A DNA stretch of 64,000 nt from Ignavibacteriota bacterium (GTDB taxonomy: Bacteria > Bacteroidota > Ignavibacteria > SZUA-365): contig JACRFB010000012.1 of NCBI GenBank assembly GCA_016218045.1, positions 1 through 64,000 of the forward strand. The letters run 5' to 3'. The position numbers and the translations under genes are program-made. Positions 3,684 through 46,327 of this stretch are shown here, one piece after another. The number at the start of each line of letters is the position of its first letter. Position 1 is the stretch's first letter. The notes under the pieces were generated by a model, which saw only the letters and a list, made by a program, of their open reading frames with translations, searched no databases and had not been told where the DNA came from.

Positions 3684-3990
3684 CTGAACTCCCAACTCAG
3701 CAGTATCATCGCGCTTTCCCGCTAGCGGGACTCAGCGAGACACTACTTAGATGTGCCGCTCCGTCTTCCCAGTACCCAGTTCCCAGTACCAAGTACCCAG
3801 TGTCGTCGCACTTTCCCGCTAGCGGGACTCAGCGTGACACTACTTAGATGTGCCGCTCCGACTTCCCAGTACCCAGTGCCGTCGCACTTCGACTTCGCTC
3901 AGTGAGACACTACGTTGCTGTCTCGCTCTCCCATGTCCGAACTCCGAACTCCCAACTCCCTACTCCCAACTCCCCACTCCCGACTCAACA
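3684..3990. repeat. Modular repeat block: heptad arrays plus hairpin/CGAAGTCGAAG core modules
   Basis: The gene-free stretch 3514-3991 begins with about 170 bases without recognisable content, then turns into repeats. Two near-identical copies (about 3708-3760 and 3808-3860) read CGC(G/A)CTTTCCCGCTAGCGGG, then ACTCAGCG(A/T)GACACTAC. They carry a perfect TCCCGC-TA-GCGGGA palindrome and are followed by CCCAGTA-type heptads. A third copy (about 3886-3917) keeps the same flanks but replaces the palindrome with CGACTTCGCTCAG. The block ends in CCCAACT/CCCTACT/CCCCACT heptads (about 3935-3985). The same modules occur inside the TonB receptor gene at 8.9-9.37 kb and near 45.1 kb. The block lies between the convergent-facing ends of unrelated transcripts (the nuclease gene promoter and the 3' end of the surface-protein operon). 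Confidence 0.85.
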
Positions 3991-6072: not shown

Positions 6073-9383
<3,311 letters not shown>

Positions 9384-18866: not shown

Positions 18867-19261
18867 GTGTTTCGAAGCTGAAAGCTATACACAGGGGGGC
18901 TGAAAAACAAGGCGGGAGAACGGTGAATCACCTCAATTATACTTCCTCACTCCGGCTCCCTGTCCATCGCCGCCGTTTACCCTGATTCGACGCGGGCGGC
19001 GCGAACCGCCGAAATCAGCACAAAGGGTGAAAAATATTCAGCGGCACAGGTCCGGCGCCTGTTCACGATCGTTTCGGCTTGAAATACCTTGCGAAAAAAT
19101 CGGCCGTATAAGCTCAAAGAAAATAAGACGCATTTCATGTCCGAATATTACAGAATTGTGTGTTCTTCTATACGACGTAATCTTTGGTACGGGAATTGAA
19201 GCAAACGGTGGTGGTTTGGGTTCACATTTTGCAACAACGGAGACGGGCAGTTCCGCGTCGA
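18867..19261. other. Divergent promoter region between surface operon and kinase genes
   Basis: About 395 bases with no supported gene, markedly more AT-rich in its right half than the flanking coding DNA. It must hold the promoter of the leftward operon; a TATAATTG string on the minus strand (about 18936-18943) is one -7-like candidate without a convincing partner. A GGCGG/CCGCC hairpin lies at about 18992-19010. The right part holds the candidate kinase promoter listed separately. Confidence 0.5.
19156..19186 (+). promoter_or_regulatory. Candidate Bacteroidota-type promoter for the first kinase gene
   Basis: TTG at 19156-19158, 20 bases of spacer, then AATCTTTG at 19179-19186. This matches the Bacteroidota consensus (TTTG, 19-21 bases, TAnnTTTG) except for A instead of T at the first position of the -7 box. 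It ends about 75 bases before the ATG of the first kinase gene. Confidence 0.4.
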
Positions 19262-21460
19262 ATGCTTCAACAAGGCCTCATAATATCAGAATTGTTTACA
19301 CTTCTTGAGCGCCAGCATGGTGGCAGAATGGCCGAGGTGTGGCAAGCGAAGGAGGGGGATGCCTGTGTCGCGTTGAAGTTTTTTGAACCCGGGAAAGAAC
19401 TCGATCCCGTCGTGCTGCAGTTGCTCGCGACGGAATTCCTCTCGATGACCATCAAACATCCGAACGTGCTCATGCCCCAGGGGGCTGCGATGCACAACGA
19501 TATGCCCTATCTGCGCATGCCGTACATGTCGCGTGGATCACTGCGGGCGTATCTCCGCACCCGGACTGCACACAAACGTATCGGCGAAGATCAGCTCGTG
19601 CGTGTGCTGGGCCAGATGGCGGCGGCCGTCTCGTTTCTGCATAAAAATTCCTTTGTGCATCAGGATATCGCGCCCGAGAACATCCTGTTTACTGACAGCG
19701 GACACCTGGTATTGACGGATTTCGGGATCAGCCGCATCCTGCACAACATGTTGGGACACGACCTGGGTCCGAACCGCATCTTCCATCCGGCCTACGCCTC
19801 GCCCGAGCGCTTTGTCGCCACGTCGGCCACCTCCGCCGACGACATCTTCTCGATAGGGGCCATCATCTATGAAATGTGCACGGGACGGCCGCCTTGGGGC
19901 GACGACGGCGGCGCGGCACTGCTCGAGGACGAGACGGCGCCCTCCGTGCCCGGCGAATATTCGGATGATCTTATCGGAATTGTGGAGTCCTGCCTCAGCC
20001 TGCGTCCCGAGAGCCGCCCCGTCGCGGCCGACCTCGAACGCTGGGCGGAGGAGTATCCGCAACGTATGCGCGCGCTTCAGACGAAGTCCCACGGTGCGGT
20101 GCACGGATCCGAACACACACGCGCGCGCGCGGGCAGGCAGGCGGAACAGGCGCAGAAGCCGCGCACGACCTCCGTGGCGGCGTCGGAAGCGGTAGCGACC
20201 GGCGCGGCGCAGACGGCACGCGAAAACCATACGCCTGCGATGGAACATGGCACCCGTGAAAACGCAAGCGCGCGAGTGGAACAGGAAGAGGCGGCGCGTC
20301 TCGCGCGGGAGGCCGACGACAGGAAGTCCGTGATCGATTCCGTCCGCAAGGCGCGAGAGGAGGCGGAACTGCGCCTGCGCCAGGATCTCGAGCTGCAGCT
20401 CAAATCGGAGTTCAACGACCGGCTTCAGGCGGTTCTGAGCGAAGTGCACACACATGTGGAAAAGCGCGTCGGGGAGGCGGAGCGCAGCGCGCGCGAGGCG
20501 ATGGCGCGGGCGGAACGCGCGGAGAATGAGATGCGCGCGCGCGAGGCGAACGAGCGGCGCATGCGCAGCGAACAGCAGCGGCAGGCGCGGGATGCGTCCG
20601 TGCGCAATGCCGCGCTCGAGGCGGAGCGGCGCGCGCGGGAGGAGTCCGAGAAGGTTCGCCGCGCGGAGGCCGAACGAAAGGCGCGCGAACTGTCGGCAAA
20701 ACACACGCGGGAAGAGGCGGACCGGGTTGCGCGCGCCGAGGCCGAAAAGCAGCGCCGCGCCGAGGCCGAACGACTCGCGCGCGAGGAAGCGGAACGACAG
20801 GCGCATGCGGAGACCGAACGCCGGCGGAACGAGGAGAAGATCCGCGCCGAGCGCGAGGCCGCCGTAAAGCAGGCGCGTGTGCAGGAGGAGGAACGCGCGC
20901 GGGCCGAGGCCGAGAAATGGGCGCGCGAGGAGGCCGAACGACGTCGACGGCTGGACGAGGAACATGCCGCACGGGTCCAAGCCGAACGGCGCGCCAGGGA
21001 ATCCGAGGAAAAACTCGAGCGTGAACGCGAACTCGCACGCGTGCGCGAGGACGCGGAACATCGTGCCCGGGCCGAGGCGGAACGGACGCTGCGCGAGGAA
21101 CTCGAACAGTCGCTGCTGCCGGTTTTGCAGGAGCGCGCGCGGACCGAGGAACGCGCGAAGGCACGCGAGGAGTATGAACAGCGCCTGCGCGAGCGGGAAG
21201 AGCAGTGGCTGCGGGAAAAAACCGACATCCTGCTGCGCGCGAGACAGGAACGCGCGGCCCGCGATGCCGAATCGCTGCGTGTAATGTCCGAACTTGAACG
21301 CCGCGTGGCGGAGGCGGTGGCGCTGGTGTTCCGTGAAGAAACTGAACGTGTGCTGCTTGCGCTGCAGAAACACGAAACCGAGGCGTCCGACGACGTACGC
21401 CGCATGGTCGAAACACGTCCTGTCCCGCCGCTATTGTCGGAGTCCCGGCCCTCCGCGTGA
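19262..21460 (+). CDS. Non-RD Ser/Thr protein kinase with long Arg/Glu-rich helical tail (cytosolic paralogue)
   Basis: A 732-residue protein. Kinase domain about 10-275: VALKFF carries the ATP-binding Lys, FVHQDIAPENILF is the catalytic loop (HQD, so the usual HRD Arg is missing), LTDFGIS is the DFG motif and YASPERF the APE-like motif. The glycine loop is degenerate (ERQHGGRMAEVW). Residues of about 280-715 are an uninterrupted run rich in R, E and A (REEAERQA-like), predicted helical. The protein ends without membrane segment or ligand domain. The ATG at 19262 is preferred because it aligns with the start of the neighbouring kinase (LFTLLER / RFRLLER); upstream in-frame GTG codons add nothing similar. 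It is a tandem duplicate of the next gene over the kinase and proximal helix. Substrate unknown. Confidence 0.9.
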   Translation: MLQQGLIISELFTLLERQHGGRMAEVWQAKEGDACVALKFFEPGKELDPVVLQLLATEFLSMTIKHPNVLMPQGAAMHNDMPYLRMPYMSRGSLRAYLRTRTAHKRIGEDQLVRVLGQMAAAVSFLHKNSFVHQDIAPENILFTDSGHLVLTDFGISRILHNMLGHDLGPNRIFHPAYASPERFVATSATSADDIFSIGAIIYEMCTGRPPWGDDGGAALLEDETAPSVPGEYSDDLIGIVESCLSLRPESRPVAADLERWAEEYPQRMRALQTKSHGAVHGSEHTRARAGRQAEQAQKPRTTSVAASEAVATGAAQTARENHTPAMEHGTRENASARVEQEEAARLAREADDRKSVIDSVRKAREEAELRLRQDLELQLKSEFNDRLQAVLSEVHTHVEKRVGEAERSAREAMARAERAENEMRAREANERRMRSEQQRQARDASVRNAALEAERRAREESEKVRRAEAERKARELSAKHTREEADRVARAEAEKQRRAEAERLAREEAERQAHAETERRRNEEKIRAEREAAVKQARVQEEERARAEAEKWAREEAERRRRLDEEHAARVQAERRARESEEKLERERELARVREDAEHRARAEAERTLREELEQSLLPVLQERARTEERAKAREEYEQRLREREEQWLREKTDILLRARQERAARDAESLRVMSELERRVAEAVALVFREETERVLLALQKHETEASDDVRRMVETRPVPPLLSESRPSA

Positions 21461-21619: not shown

Positions 21620-24600
21620 ATGGATATCAAGGCGGGATCATTGTTCGCGAATCGTTTCCGGCTCCTCGAGAGGATCCCGGGAGGGAATCGCACGCAAGTC
21701 TGGCGCGTGGAGGACGCGAAAAAGAGCAATGCGGTGTTTGCGCTGAAGCTCTTCGAATCAGACAAGGAACTCGATCCGGTCATCGTGCAGCTTCTGACAA
21801 ACGAATTTCTCTCGATGTCGCTGAAGCACACGAATCTGCTCATGCCCGCGAGTTTTGCCGCCTCCGGCAGTGTTCCGTATCTGGTTCTTCCCTATATGGA
21901 AAAAGGTTCGCTGCGAGGCCAGCTCCAGCGGTCGCCCGCGGGCGGCCGCGTGGGTGAAAAACAGATCGTACCCTTCCTTGCACAGATCGCCTCGGGACTC
22001 GCAGTCCTGCACAAAAACAACTTCGTGCATCAGGATATTGCGCCCGAAAATATTTTTCTCGGAGAGGGGGGCGTGTTCCTTCTCGGCGATTTTGGCATCA
22101 GCCGTATCCTGCACAACACGCTGTCGCATGAAGTGGGTCCGAACAAGATATTCCACATCGCATACGCCTCACCCGAGAGATTCATCTCGCGTTCCGCGAA
22201 TCCGCCCGACGACATTTTCTCCGTCGGTGTGGTGCTGGTGGAGATGGCGATGGGCAAGGTGCCTTTCGACGGACAGGGCGGCAAACCGATTCTCGAGGAG
22301 CAGGAGCCGCGGAAGTACCTCGATCTGAGCTTTTCGGATGAGTTTATCGAGATTGTGCAGTCGTGTCTGCAACGTAATCCCGACAAGCGTCCCACCGCGG
22401 CGGAACTCGAGAAGTGGGCGTTGTCGTTCACGCCACTGAGTCCGGAGGAACTACGTGCCGCGCGCGCGGAGAAGGCGCGGAAGGAGAAGGAGGCCGAGGA
22501 AGCCAAGGCCCGTCGCGCGGAGGAAATCAAGAAACAGACCGAATTGCAGCGCAAGTCGAAGGAGGATGTCGACAGGCGCATACGCGAGGCGGGCGAGAAA
22601 AAGGCCGCGAAGTCAAAGCCGCAGAAGACGCTGGCGGACTACGTTCCAGGGGCCGCGGCGGACGTCGCCGCCGAGAAGGAACAGCGCGCGCGCGAGGAAG
22701 CCGCCCGGAGCGAGCAGGAACAGAAGGCGCGCGAGGAGGCCGAGCGCAAGCTCCGCGAAGCGACTGAACGCGCGATACGCGAGGAGACCGAGAAGAAGGT
22801 CCGCCAGGAAACGGAACGCGCCCTGCGCGAGGAGGCCGAACGCCGCGCGCGCGAGGAGAAGGAACGGCGGGCACGCGAGGAGGCCGAACGCAAGGCACGG
22901 GAGGAATCGGAACGGCAGCAGCGCCGCGCGTTTGAAGAGCAGTTGAAGAAGGAACTCGACTCGAAGCTGCAGGAGGAACTCTCGCGCATTCGCAGCGCCG
23001 CCGAAACGCAACTGCAGGAAGCGGAGCGTCTTTCGCAGGAACTCGCGGAACAGCGCGCACGCGCCGAGGCGGAACGCAAACACCTCGCGGAAGAACAGCA
23101 GCGCCTGCGCGACGAGGCCGAACGCAAAGCCCGCGAAGAAGCGGAACGACAGGCCCGCGAAGAAGCGGAACGACAGGCCCGCGAAGAAGCGGAACGTCAC
23201 GCACGTGAAGAAGCGGAACGCCAGGCCCGCGAAGAAGCGGAACGACGGGCGCGTGAAGAAGCGGAACAACGGGCGCGCGAAGAAGCGGAACGACAGGCGC
23301 GCGAAGAGGGTGAACGACAAGCGCGCGAAGAGGCCGAACGACGGGCGCGCGAAGATGCGGAACGCCAGGCGCGCGAAGATGCGGAACGCCAGGCGCGCGA
23401 AGAAGCGGAACGTCAAGCGCGTGAAGAAGCGGAACGTCAAGCGCGTGAAGAAGCGGAACGCCAGGCGCGCGAAGAAGCGGATCGCAAGGCGCGTGAAGAA
23501 GCGGAACGACTAGCGCGCGAAGAAGCGGAACGCCAGGCGCGCGAAGAAGCGGAACGACAGGCGCGCGAAGAGGCCGAACGACAAGCGCGCGAAGAAGCGG
23601 AACGACAAGCGCGCGAAGACGCCGAGCGTCAAGAGCGGGAACGTGCTGAACGGCGGGCACGTGAGGACGCCGAGCGTGCGGAGCGTGAGGCCGCGGAGAC
23701 GCGTGTGCAGGAAGAAGCGGCACGCACGGCAAGGGAAGCGGAAGAACGCAACGAGGCCCAGTCGGCCATGCGCCGGGCGCGCGAGGAACTGGCGCGCCTG
23801 GAAAAGGCGGAGGCGGAACGACGCGCACGGGAGGCCGAGTCCATGCACGTTCGCGAGGAAGCCGACAGGCGCCTGCGTGAAGAGACGGAACGTCGTATTC
23901 GTGAAGAGATGGAGAAGAAACTCCGCGAGGAAGCGGAGGCGCGCGCGCGGGTGGAAATGGAAAAACGTCTGCACGAGGAGACGGAACGCCTGCTCCGCGA
24001 CGAGGCCGAACGCAAAGCGCGTGAAGAGGCCGAACGCAAAGCGCGTGAAGAAGCCGAGCGCAAGGCGCGCGAAGAAACCGAACGCGCGGCACGCGAAGAA
24101 ACCGAACGCAAGGCGCGTGAAGAAGCCGAACGCAAGGCGCATGAAGAAGCCGAGCGCAAGGCGCGCGAAGAGGCCGAGCGGTGGGCGCGTGAGGAAGCCG
24201 AGAAACGTGTGCGCGAAGAGGCCGAGAAGAAGGCAAGAGAGGAAGCCGAGCGGCTCATGCGCGAGGAAATTGAACGCCGCGCGCGTGAGGAGGCCGAGAG
24301 AATTGCGCGGGAGGAGACGGAACGCCGGCTGCGCGCGGAATTGGAAAAACGTGACGCGGAGGAGCGTGAACGGCGCGTCCGCGAGGAGGCCGAAAGGCGG
24401 CAACGCGAGGACGAGGAACGCCGCGCGGGCGAGGAGCAGGCGCGACGTCTCCGCGAGGAGATCGAGCAATCGATCCGGTCGGAACTGGAACAGCGCTTCT
24501 CGGCGGAACTGAGCCGCGTGCGCAACGAGACCGAGGAGCGGGCCCTGCGCGAGGCACAGCAGCGCGAGAAGGAACATGCGGAACTCGTCGCGCGTGAAGC

Positions 24601-26611
24601 GGCGGAGAAGGAACGTCTTGCGCAGGAGGCCCGGCGGGCCAAGGCCGAGGCGGAACGCCTGGCGCGCGAAACCGAACGTCTTGCGCGGGAGGAGACCGAA
24701 CGTGCGCGGCGGGAGGAGGAATTGCGGGCGGCTATCGCGGAGACCGAACAGCGCATTCGCGAGGAACTCGAGGCCCGGCTGCGCGACGAATCCCTGCGCC
24801 GCGCGAAACTCGAGGAGGTCCGCTCGGCCTCGCCTCTCGCAACAGGCGCGCTGCCCGAGGATCTGGTCGCCTCCATGCAGCGCGACACGGCGCGGCTGCG
24901 CGAGGAATTGGAGGCGCAGCTCCGCGGCGAGGTGCAGCGCGAACTCGATGTGAAACTCGCCACACTCGCGCCGGTCGAGGTGCCCGTCCATACAAACGGA
25001 CATGGTCACGAACCTCCGGGTCCGCCGCCACCGTCAGGGACGGATGCCGGCATGCAGGCGCTGCTCGACCAGATACAGCGGTCCACCGCGATTGTACCCG
25101 GACTGCCCGCGACCACGGCGCCCTTTGCTCCGGCCGAACTGCACGCGATGCAGGCGGAAGAAGCGGCTGCGAAGGTCGAAGAGCCGCGACGCAGGAAGGC
25201 GCGCAGCGAGGCGCCGAACGACGAACAGCGACGCGAGCGCCAGACGCTGCTTGCCGACGACACGCCGCTTCCGCCCAGCCCCTTCGACTCGCGGAACTGG
25301 CAGCGCGGTATCAAGATCGCCATCACGCTGGTGACCGTGGCCGTCATCGGATTTTTCTTGTACGGCGAACGCGATGTGTTGATGGATTCGAGACAGGTCG
25401 TGCGCCTCGGCGCCACCGCCGATCAGCGCGACCTCGCGGAAGCCATCGCCCGCGCGTGGCTGACGGAACGCGGAGTGCCTGCCCCGCGGTCGGCGACAAA
25501 CGACGACGGCTCGCTGCATCTGGAAGGCGCGGGCGCGGCCGACTCGGTGTTTGCCGTCGATGTGCTCGCGCTGGCGGACGATGCATTTTATCAGACAAAC
25601 GGATCCGATATCGACTTCCTGTTTGCGGGCGGACTCTCGTCCGGCGACGCGCGGCTGGTCGCGGCCACGCCGGAACTGTTCGACTACCAGACCGTACTCG
25701 GACTCGATGCCCTTGCCGTTGTGGTGCATCCCGCACAGAAGATCGACGCCATCGACGCCGGACAATTAACCGCCATCGCAAAGGGCGATGTGCGGGACTG
25801 GTCAGATCTCCGCGCGAAGCGCGGCCCTGTGACACTCTATCTGCCGGAGCGCGGCACATTCACCGGCCAGGCCATCGCGGCGCTGTTCCCCGAGTGGGGT
25901 GATGCCGCGGGCACACGTGTGAATGGCGACGCCGCGGTGCTCGATGCGGTGCTTGCGCAGCCGGGAGCCATCGGTATCGTCCGTATCAAGGATGCCGCGC
26001 GCGCCAGGATCCTCGCCGTCGGCGGCTTTGGTTTGGAGCCGGTCGCTCCCGATCCGGCACGTGTGCGGCTCGGACTCTATCCGCTCGCCGCCTCGCTCAG
26101 CGCGTACAGGCATACGGGTGCGCGTTCCGAGACCGCCGATCGGTTCCAGCGTTTCCTCGCGGGTGACGCGGTGCAGGAACTGGCCGCGGCGAGAGGTTTC
26201 ATCGATCTGCGTCTGCGCGAAGTGCCGGACAACGGCCGCGCCGTGAAGGGCGCCTTCGCGGATGCGACACGTGGCGCGCGGCGGCTTGGAGCCGATCTGC
26301 GCCTGCGTCCCGGCGCGTCGGATTTCGACGCGCTGGCGCGCGGCGACATCGAGCGCCTTGCGGCCTACGTCCGGTCGCATCCCGGTGAATCGATTCTGCT
26401 CTTCGGATTCTCCGACGCGATGAGCGCGGCGGAGACGGAAAAGCTCGCCTCGGAGACGCTTGCCCGGAAAGCCGCGGGCCGTCTGAAGGAACTCGGCGTG
26501 GACGCCGCAGCCGCCGAGGGATACGGAACGTTGCGCGCTGTGGCGCGGGACGACGCGGCGGGCGGCCGCGACCGCAACAGACGGGTCGAGATCTGGATCA
26601 CGCGCCGCTGA
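21620..26611 (+). CDS. Transmembrane Ser/Thr kinase fused to PstS-like and OmpA-like domains through a very long charged helix
   Basis: A single uninterrupted 1663-residue frame. Residues 10-275: kinase domain (FALKLF Lys; FVHQDIAPENIF catalytic loop, non-RD; LGDFGIS; YASPERF). Residues of about 281-1113: Arg/Glu/Ala-rich helix, including about 22 copies of an octapeptide REEAERQA. Residues of about 1115-1230: linker with a Pro/Gly stretch (HEPPGPPPP). Residues of about 1232-1251: one membrane helix (IKIAITLVTVAVIGFFLYG). Residues of about 1258-1555: PstS/PBP-like-2 domain (LDALAVVVHPAQKIDAID, AIAKGDVRDWSDL, LPERGTFTGQAI). Residues of about 1560-1663: OmpA C-terminal domain (ILLFGFSD ... LARKAAGRL ... 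GYGTLRAVA ... RDRNRRVEIWI), with the conserved Asp and Arg used to bind peptidoglycan diaminopimelate in OmpA. Topology: kinase in the cytoplasm, sensor domains in the periplasm. PBP-OmpA fusions are known to me; with a kinase and an 830-residue helix I know no precedent. Confidence 0.92.
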   Translation: MDIKAGSLFANRFRLLERIPGGNRTQVWRVEDAKKSNAVFALKLFESDKELDPVIVQLLTNEFLSMSLKHTNLLMPASFAASGSVPYLVLPYMEKGSLRGQLQRSPAGGRVGEKQIVPFLAQIASGLAVLHKNNFVHQDIAPENIFLGEGGVFLLGDFGISRILHNTLSHEVGPNKIFHIAYASPERFISRSANPPDDIFSVGVVLVEMAMGKVPFDGQGGKPILEEQEPRKYLDLSFSDEFIEIVQSCLQRNPDKRPTAAELEKWALSFTPLSPEELRAARAEKARKEKEAEEAKARRAEEIKKQTELQRKSKEDVDRRIREAGEKKAAKSKPQKTLADYVPGAAADVAAEKEQRAREEAARSEQEQKAREEAERKLREATERAIREETEKKVRQETERALREEAERRAREEKERRAREEAERKAREESERQQRRAFEEQLKKELDSKLQEELSRIRSAAETQLQEAERLSQELAEQRARAEAERKHLAEEQQRLRDEAERKAREEAERQAREEAERQAREEAERHAREEAERQAREEAERRAREEAEQRAREEAERQAREEGERQAREEAERRAREDAERQAREDAERQAREEAERQAREEAERQAREEAERQAREEADRKAREEAERLAREEAERQAREEAERQAREEAERQAREEAERQAREDAERQERERAERRAREDAERAEREAAETRVQEEAARTAREAEERNEAQSAMRRAREELARLEKAEAERRAREAESMHVREEADRRLREETERRIREEMEKKLREEAEARARVEMEKRLHEETERLLRDEAERKAREEAERKAREEAERKAREETERAAREETERKAREEAERKAHEEAERKAREEAERWAREEAEKRVREEAEKKAREEAERLMREEIERRAREEAERIAREETERRLRAELEKRDAEERERRVREEAERRQREDEERRAGEEQARRLREEIEQSIRSELEQRFSAELSRVRNETEERALREAQQREKEHAELVAREAAEKERLAQEARRAKAEAERLARETERLAREETERARREEELRAAIAETEQRIREELEARLRDESLRRAKLEEVRSASPLATGALPEDLVASMQRDTARLREELEAQLRGEVQRELDVKLATLAPVEVPVHTNGHGHEPPGPPPPSGTDAGMQALLDQIQRSTAIVPGLPATTAPFAPAELHAMQAEEAAAKVEEPRRRKARSEAPNDEQRRERQTLLADDTPLPPSPFDSRNWQRGIKIAITLVTVAVIGFFLYGERDVLMDSRQVVRLGATADQRDLAEAIARAWLTERGVPAPRSATNDDGSLHLEGAGAADSVFAVDVLALADDAFYQTNGSDIDFLFAGGLSSGDARLVAATPELFDYQTVLGLDALAVVVHPAQKIDAIDAGQLTAIAKGDVRDWSDLRAKRGPVTLYLPERGTFTGQAIAALFPEWGDAAGTRVNGDAAVLDAVLAQPGAIGIVRIKDAARARILAVGGFGLEPVAPDPARVRLGLYPLAASLSAYRHTGARSETADRFQRFLAGDAVQELAAARGFIDLRLREVPDNGRAVKGAFADATRGARRLGADLRLRPGASDFDALARGDIERLAAYVRSHPGESILLFGFSDAMSAAETEKLASETLARKAAGRLKELGVDAAAAEGYGTLRAVARDDAAGGRDRNRRVEIWITRR
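23112..23636 (+). repeat. 24-bp in-frame coding repeats (octapeptide REEAERQA)
   Basis: About 22 consecutive 24-bp units of the type GCGCGCGAAGAAGCGGAACG plus four bases. They use nearly identical codons throughout (GAA-GAA-GCG-GAA), whereas the surrounding helix uses mixed GAG/GAA and GCC/GCG. That uniformity suggests recent expansion by slippage or unequal crossover. A second, shorter tract of similar units lies at about 24000-24200. Lengths are multiples of three, so the frame is kept. Confidence 0.9.
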
Positions 26612-45031: not shown

Positions 45032-45140
45032 GGAATGGTAGATGGTAGATAGTAGATGGTAGACGGTAGTTTCGGAGACGGAAGTATACGTGCCGTGTCA
45101 CCTTGAGTCCCGCGAAGCGGGAGAGGGTGGAACGGCACGA
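45032..45140. repeat. GGTAGAT heptads and hairpin module 3' of trmO
   Basis: 45032-45069 is an imperfect heptad run (GGTAGAT, GGTAGAT, AGTAGAT, GGTAGAC). At about 45098-45140 follows GTGTCACCTTGAGTCCCGCG, then AAGCGGGAGAG: a TCCCGC-GAA-GCGGGA hairpin with the same CTTGAGTCCCGC start as the modules at 3.7 and 9.0 kb. The 176-base gap to the trmO stop holds nothing else. Confidence 0.8.
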
Positions 45141-46006: not shown

Positions 46007-46058
46007 GTCCGCCCGTTCCTTCATGCCCCAAACTCGCCCCCCGCCGCATGGGAAACAA

Positions 46059-46216
46059 GGGAGTAGGGAGTGGGGAGTGGGGAGTAGTGAGTAGTGAGTA
46101 GGGAGTTTTTCCTCCTGTCTCCTTTCTCCTGTCTCCTCACACGATCTACGCAGATCCATCTACCCTCTACCTATCTACCAACTACCATCTACCGATCCAC
46201 CGATCCACCGATCTAC
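46059..46216. repeat. Heptad arrays (GGGAGTR, then ATCTACC) 5' of trmO and before corA
   Basis: 46059-46106: GGGAGTA/GGGAGTG units, some AGTAGTG. 46108-46146: CTCCTGTCTCC-type units. 46150-46216: ATCTACC/GATCCACC units, the reverse complement of the GGTAGAT array on the other side of trmO. The rest of the gap to corA (to 46327) includes an AT-rich 46220-46260 stretch that may hold its promoter. Confidence 0.85.
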
Positions 46217-46327
46217 CCGCCTTGTTCATTCAACCAAGAAGATCGATATTACACGATTCCTCCCGTGAGTGTCCGCGCAGTCCGGGCACTCGAATCCCCC
46301 CACCTTGTCGTATCGGGAATTGACGCG

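Follow-up and report, generated by a model that had tools for sequence, protein, structure and literature searches.

The REEAERQA octapeptide tract is predicted to form part of a very long single-alpha-helix (SAH, ER/K-type) rod that would serve as a semi-stiff leash in a single-pass membrane kinase. Judged from the sequence, this reading has a probability of roughly 0.6. The tract is encoded in the window, by which we mean the whole stretch of 64,000 nucleotides analyzed here, and the features of its gene are collected in Table 1. A charged rod of ~730 residues lies between an N-terminal kinase and a single transmembrane (TM) segment, and the PBP-like and OmpA-like domains beyond the TM segment are assigned to the periplasm. 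The main tract is a strong SAH candidate, set in a charged rod that is exceptionally long and belongs to a receptor-like kinase. A Cornifin Pfam match to the rod was below cut-off and was put down to composition.

Table 1. Position of the kinase–rod gene, its domains and repeats, and its tandem paralog in the window
Feature	Position	Strand	Basis
Kinase–rod–TM–PBP–OmpA gene, 1663 aa	21620..26611	+	ORF and domain matches
Protein kinase domain, aa 19–263	21674..22408	+	PF00069, E 1.3e-34
Charged helical rod, aa 340–1070	22637..24829	+	i,i+4 pairs 346 opposite : 5 alike; AlphaFold2 helix
Short octad array, 4 units, aa 403–434	22826..22921	+	
Main array of 24 octads, 11 of them exactly REEAERQA, aa 497–688	23108..23683	+	
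Second array of 14 octads, most frequent type REEAERKA, aa 793–904	23996..24331	+	
Hydrophobic cassette 1, F438-L442-L446-L450-L454-I457, spacing 4-4-4-4-3	22931..22990	+	
Hydrophobic cassette 2, L944 to V967, spacing 4-4-4-4-4-3	24449..24520	+	
Hydrophobic cassette 3, L1093 to L1116	24896..24967	+	
Predicted transmembrane segment, ~aa 1230–1248	25307..25363	+	Mean Kyte-Doolittle 2.1 over 19 residues
PBP_like_2 domain, PstS-like solute-binding fold, ~aa 1359–1514	25694..26161	+	PF12849, E 2.7e-8
OmpA-like C-terminal domain, ~aa 1564–1654	26309..26581	+	PF00691, E 8.3e-6
Upstream tandem paralog, 758 aa, kinase and charged rod	19184..21460	+	49% identity over kinase part

Octads were counted when at least five of eight residues matched REEAERQA, consecutively and in frame. 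The first-pass annotation had described a tract at 23112–23636 in which the glutamates at positions 2 and 5 face an arginine four residues later. This pairing (E2 to R6, and E5 to R1 of the following unit) is present as described. The tract consists of 24 in-phase octads. The coordinates captured most of the main array but missed its ends, the arrays of 14 and 4 octads, and the rest of the rod. TRF delimited a 24-bp array at 23107–23619 with 21.4 copies, 87% matches, and a score of 690. The charged fraction is 0.66 in the main tract, where the positive charges are nearly all Arg and Ala makes up 24%, and 0.61 in the rod as a whole.

The same annotation had taken uniform codons as a sign of recent expansion. 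Codon use is indeed skewed for Glu (GAA:GAG 58:9 within the tract versus 111:118 in the remainder of the gene), but it is not uniform for Arg-6, Gln-7, and Ala-4. Adjacent units among the 20 central ones of the 24 resemble each other more than in shuffled order (0.884 versus 0.861, p 0.0064). From this likeness and the GAA bias, we conclude that the main array grew locally. The units are, however, only ~80% identical, and the between-unit pN/pS is 0.18 with a pS of 0.52 (0.30 with a pS of 0.68 in the second array). With synonymous sites this divergent, the main array is unlikely to have arisen very recently.

The rod is rich in Glu and Arg/Lys, as is typical of SAHs, and its opposite charges are paired through i,i+4 alone. 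In the main tract, 103 i,i+4 charge pairs are opposite and a single one is alike. Over the rod (aa 340–1070), 346 i,i+4 pairs are opposite and 5 alike, while the i,i+3 pairs are divided into 121 opposite and 134 alike. Coiled-coil arms of SMC from the same genome gave i,i+4 ratios of 16:17 and 26:14, and a RecN region gave 17:11. For a natural helix fragment of myosin-VIIa, an SAH that had come up in the PDB search, the ratio was 21:3. Taken four residues at a time, positive and negative charges alternate without interruption through a chain of 50 residues (aa 497–693). No such chain exceeded 9 when the rod was shuffled 200 times, so the pattern far exceeds chance. The number of alike i,i+4 pairs, 5 in the rod, never fell below 106 in 2000 shuffles. 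The upstream paralog, in which no PBP or OmpA match was found, likewise carries a rod with 106 opposite and 7 alike pairs. A DNA-binding, KER-like role was set aside because both the tract (net charge −19) and the rod (−39) are net negative.

The charge rule extends to those parts of the rod that contain few octads. As a reference, the decay of perfect octads was simulated until they were as degenerate as the real stretch. For aa 905–1070, the observed ratio was 63:1, versus a mean of 33.9:25.8 in the simulated decay, and each of 150 runs yielded at least 14 alike pairs. For aa 689–792, we observed 40:1 versus a simulated mean of 23.3:15.3. The exclusion of like charges four residues apart appears to be selected independently of the repeat sequence. 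Taken together, the lattice ratio, the decay simulation, and the repeats of the relatives described below support an SAH rod and selection on its charge lattice.

Since the classical E4(R/K)4 helix itself has an eight-residue period, the period alone cannot decide between an SAH and a coiled coil. The best heptad a/d register of V/I/L/M/F/Y/W in any 28-residue window reached 0.12 in the main octad tract, whereas the maxima of the SMC arms, determined with the same measure, were 0.88–1.00. With maxima of 0.12 and 0.25, the octad arrays have no hydrophobic seam. At the heptad period of 3.5, the power in the octad array was 1.0 for VILMFYW and 0.19 with Ala included, and no coiled-coil a/d pattern was found. 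The combined Ala and hydrophobic signal instead peaked at a period of 4.0 (power 57.2; at most 0.3 at 3.5–3.75). Such an Ala stripe would turn by 40 degrees every four residues and is not a heptad seam. The earlier statement that a dimeric coiled coil is not favored consequently holds for the octad tract. The broader claim of an SAH rod rather than a coiled coil is supported for the tract, with its 103:1 lattice and missing heptad seam, but is qualified by the three hydrophobic cassettes elsewhere in the protein.

The cassettes may be pairing or docking sites; their 4-4-4-4-3 spacing corresponds to ~3.8 residues per turn. A seam does occur there, for example with a maximum of 0.62 at aa 435–496, and seam-bearing windows lie in aa 435–496 (0.34) and aa 1075–1118 (0.71). 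Cassette 1 resembles cassette 2 (score 53) and one in the paralog (score 45), where the 95% level of shuffled sequences was 42 and the largest of 200 shuffles was 51. These similarities and seams would fit an oligomeric coil in which two or more chains associate through the cassettes and the drifting Ala stripe, possibly including the rod of the paralog. The octads would then act as spacers within a dimer that joins two kinase domains. Designed helices point in the same direction: in PMC5347031, Ala-substituted 7-residue repeats formed multimeric helices. De novo 7-residue repeats with more Arg aggregated there, which speaks against an SAH in this Arg-rich tract, although the authors confine the warning on Arg to 7-residue designs. 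The arrays, however, lack a heptad seam, their Ala signal is restricted to a period of 4.0 and its stripe rotates round the helix, and the SMC and RecN coils used for comparison follow the intrahelical i+4 rule less strongly. We consider the oligomeric arrangement rather unlikely.

AlphaFold2, run on a single chain without alignment, predicted helices at aa 346–563, 597–735, 749–1070, and 1080–1116 (mean pLDDT 71.4, pTM 0.26), so that the modeled rod is nearly all helix, at modest confidence. A non-helical gap at aa 564–596, with a pLDDT of ~56–64, falls inside the main tract. The model covers one chain only and says nothing on dimers.

The genome sets searched for the tract contain one genome per species. 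Among the 150 of 466 candidates scored in the own genome, matches at E ≤ 1e-6 were confined to the 1663-aa gene and the upstream paralog. With at most eight candidates scored per genome, the tract occurred in two of 381 genomes of the class at E ≤ 1e-20 (its own and the sister-genus genome G003) and at E ≤ 1e-18 in one of 395 genomes of the phylum sample, its own. The G003 protein shares 55% identity in the kinase and 34% in the C-terminal half, and its neighbors match those of the gene in the window (a glutamate-dehydrogenase-like gene and a secreted protein, named by eye). Its octads are of the REEAERKA type with Lys or Ile at some positions and show 99 opposite and 5 alike i,i+4 pairs. In a same-order relative, G013, the C-terminal half (26%) stands behind a charged helix at a contig edge. 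The two kinase matches of G013 were rejected as the head of this C-terminal half, as they are located in other proteins. Heptads of the type RRKEEEL replace the octads in G013 (L043, 2–450), with 71 opposite and 7 alike i,i+4 pairs; this layout is near that of the designed AEEEXXX SAH repeats in PMC5347031.

At E ≤ 0.001, only one sequence in the PDB matched the tract: 9hcj, where residues 1122–1259 of chain V0, a WD40-like protein, form an octad tract of the same layout with a 59:0 ratio at i+4 (85 residues counted). A literature search by the code 9hcj found no paper. In searches that covered subscription journals thinly, the octad peptides REEAER, AREEAER, and EAERQARE were not printed in any of the matches listed, and nothing relevant, by title or start of the abstract, appeared for a bacterial kinase with an SAH or for a kinase with PBP/OmpA.

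The G003 gene bears on two further explanations. It is split over two contigs that both end inside octads, with 7 complete octads on one side and 16 good octads on the other; no exact overlap of 16–200 nt was found between the contig ends. A four-unit (96-bp) higher-order pattern recurs there, the two ends share up to 65 nt of exact repeat, and the 265 residues between rod and membrane segment do not follow the charge rule (22:19). This higher-order repeat, the loss of the helix rule, and the signal of local duplication in the main array could reflect neutral, low-complexity growth of a GC-rich 24-mer, in which the encoded stretch is tolerated as helix or disordered linker while its length and stiffness are unselected. 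This explanation is already weakened by the between-unit pN/pS of 0.18, by a charge rule in the degenerate parts that exceeds simulated decay, and by a relative that retains the rule although its repeat differs in length, and we regard it as quite improbable. Tandem repeats often misassemble, and the break of the G003 gene within the tract might point to an artefact in which the array was collapsed or inflated during assembly. In the main array, however, the longest exact repeat is 44 nt and the units differ at many synonymous sites, so that ordinary reads should suffice to resolve the array, and the reading frame stays open throughout. An artefact is therefore hardly credible.

Inspection of the kinase domain by eye revealed the motifs ALK (aa 41–43), HQDIAPEN (137–144), DFG (157–159), and SPE (184–186). 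The HRD arginine and the catalytic-loop lysine are replaced: the 1663-aa protein, its paralog, and the sister-genus protein carry HQDI(A/V)PEN instead of HRDxKxxN. A pseudokinase is thus conceivable, and the protein would then serve structurally, tying the envelope to the cytoplasm through a load-bearing rod. Yet the VAIK-like ATP-binding Lys, the catalytic Asp, the Asn, and the DFG motif are retained as judged by eye, and the PF00069 score is strong. We consider such a tether unlikely; an SAH leash on a kinase is the preferred reading.

For the periplasmic half, the PF00691 match scored 26.5 bits against a cut-off of 27.2 and was above cut-off in both relatives. The NCBIfam PstS model matched the 1663-aa protein weakly (36.4 bits, cut-off 206.6), and the AlphaFold2 model of the C-terminal part had a pLDDT of 57.8, too low for comparing folds. 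The pair of PBP_like_2 and OmpA is widespread. We scanned 34 proteins (33 of 80 loci plus G233); all 34 carry the domain pair, and none has a kinase match at E ≤ 0.001. The TM–PBP-like–OmpA module (window 25262–26608; L052 of G233, L093, L097) is joined to differing cytoplasmic heads: the kinase in the window, and in G233 a weak TIR match (E 0.0084, below cut-off). A head composed of a response regulator and DUF4388 occurs in two of the 34 scanned proteins. TM–PBP-like–OmpA may be a general envelope-sensing module.

Other repeats are present in the window. GGGAGTA-type heptanucleotide repeats lie at 8929–9323, and also at 3768–3986, 45035–45069, and 46058–46217. At 8929–9323, they are embedded in a 99-bp unit of 3.9 copies that also contains CTGAGCGAAGTCGAAG, a 16-mer with five occurrences in the window (at most one mismatch) versus zero expected. 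On the minus strand at 22527–25009, open frames as long as 569 aa lie antisense to the rod and probably derive from its GC-rich repeated codons.

In the proposed arrangement, the periplasmic half would be fixed to the envelope, where it may act as a ligand sensor, and the cytoplasmic rod would be a semi-stiff leash that sets the reach of the kinase from the membrane. We infer this leash function by analogy. If continuous at 0.15 nm per residue, the rod would measure ~110 nm, and the main tract alone 29 nm. Octad duplication would provide an easy route to a longer rod, and the short hydrophobic cassettes would be possible pairing or docking points. A more specific version is possible but doubtful: a bacterial one-chain counterpart of the INCENP/Aurora B leash with a kinase radius of up to ~100 nm, lengthened by octad duplication, in which selection holds only the i to i+4 lattice and leaves the repeats free to change in sequence and period. 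SAH rods have been described chiefly in eukaryotic motors and kinetochores, and the rod of this bacterial membrane kinase would be several times longer. If the leash is real, it would be a simple system for varying the length in steps of whole octads and measuring how far the kinase reaches. Genome annotation would also benefit, since the charge rule would help to distinguish a long helix from a coiled coil.

Among known systems, the PASTA receptor kinases PknB and Stk1 likewise combine a cytoplasmic kinase, one TM segment, and envelope-facing domains. The protein described here differs in its PBP-like and OmpA domains in place of PASTA and in its very long rod. The NCBIfam PASTA-kinase model scored its kinase part far under the cut-off (134 bits against 450), and no PASTA repeats were found in Pfam searches at E ≤ 0.01 (full protein) and E ≤ 1 (C-terminal part). 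Stand-alone PBP_like_2 and OmpA proteins of many bacteria have the same periplasmic domain pair, but in the 34 scanned members the N-terminal parts are short, or in two consist of the response regulator and DUF4388 mentioned above, and gave no kinase match. With the SAH/CSAH/ER/K domains of myosin and INCENP, the rod shares a high E/R/K content, opposite charges at i,i+4, the missing hydrophobic seam, and a role as the long connection that joins a catalytic domain to its anchor. Known SAHs are typically near 75 residues long, with a maximum near 200 in myosin, according to PMC5378345, whereas the rod here comprises ~730 residues, is almost purely i+4 paired, Arg- and Ala-rich, and belongs to a bacterial receptor-like kinase. 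A functional parallel may be the INCENP "dog leash" (PMC4571873), in which an SAH ties Aurora B, a human cell-division kinase, to a fixed anchor and its length tunes substrate reach, shifting which Aurora B substrates are phosphorylated. In the protein of the window, the sequence is unrelated, kinase and rod form one polypeptide, and the TM segment and periplasmic domains would be the anchor of the presumed leash.
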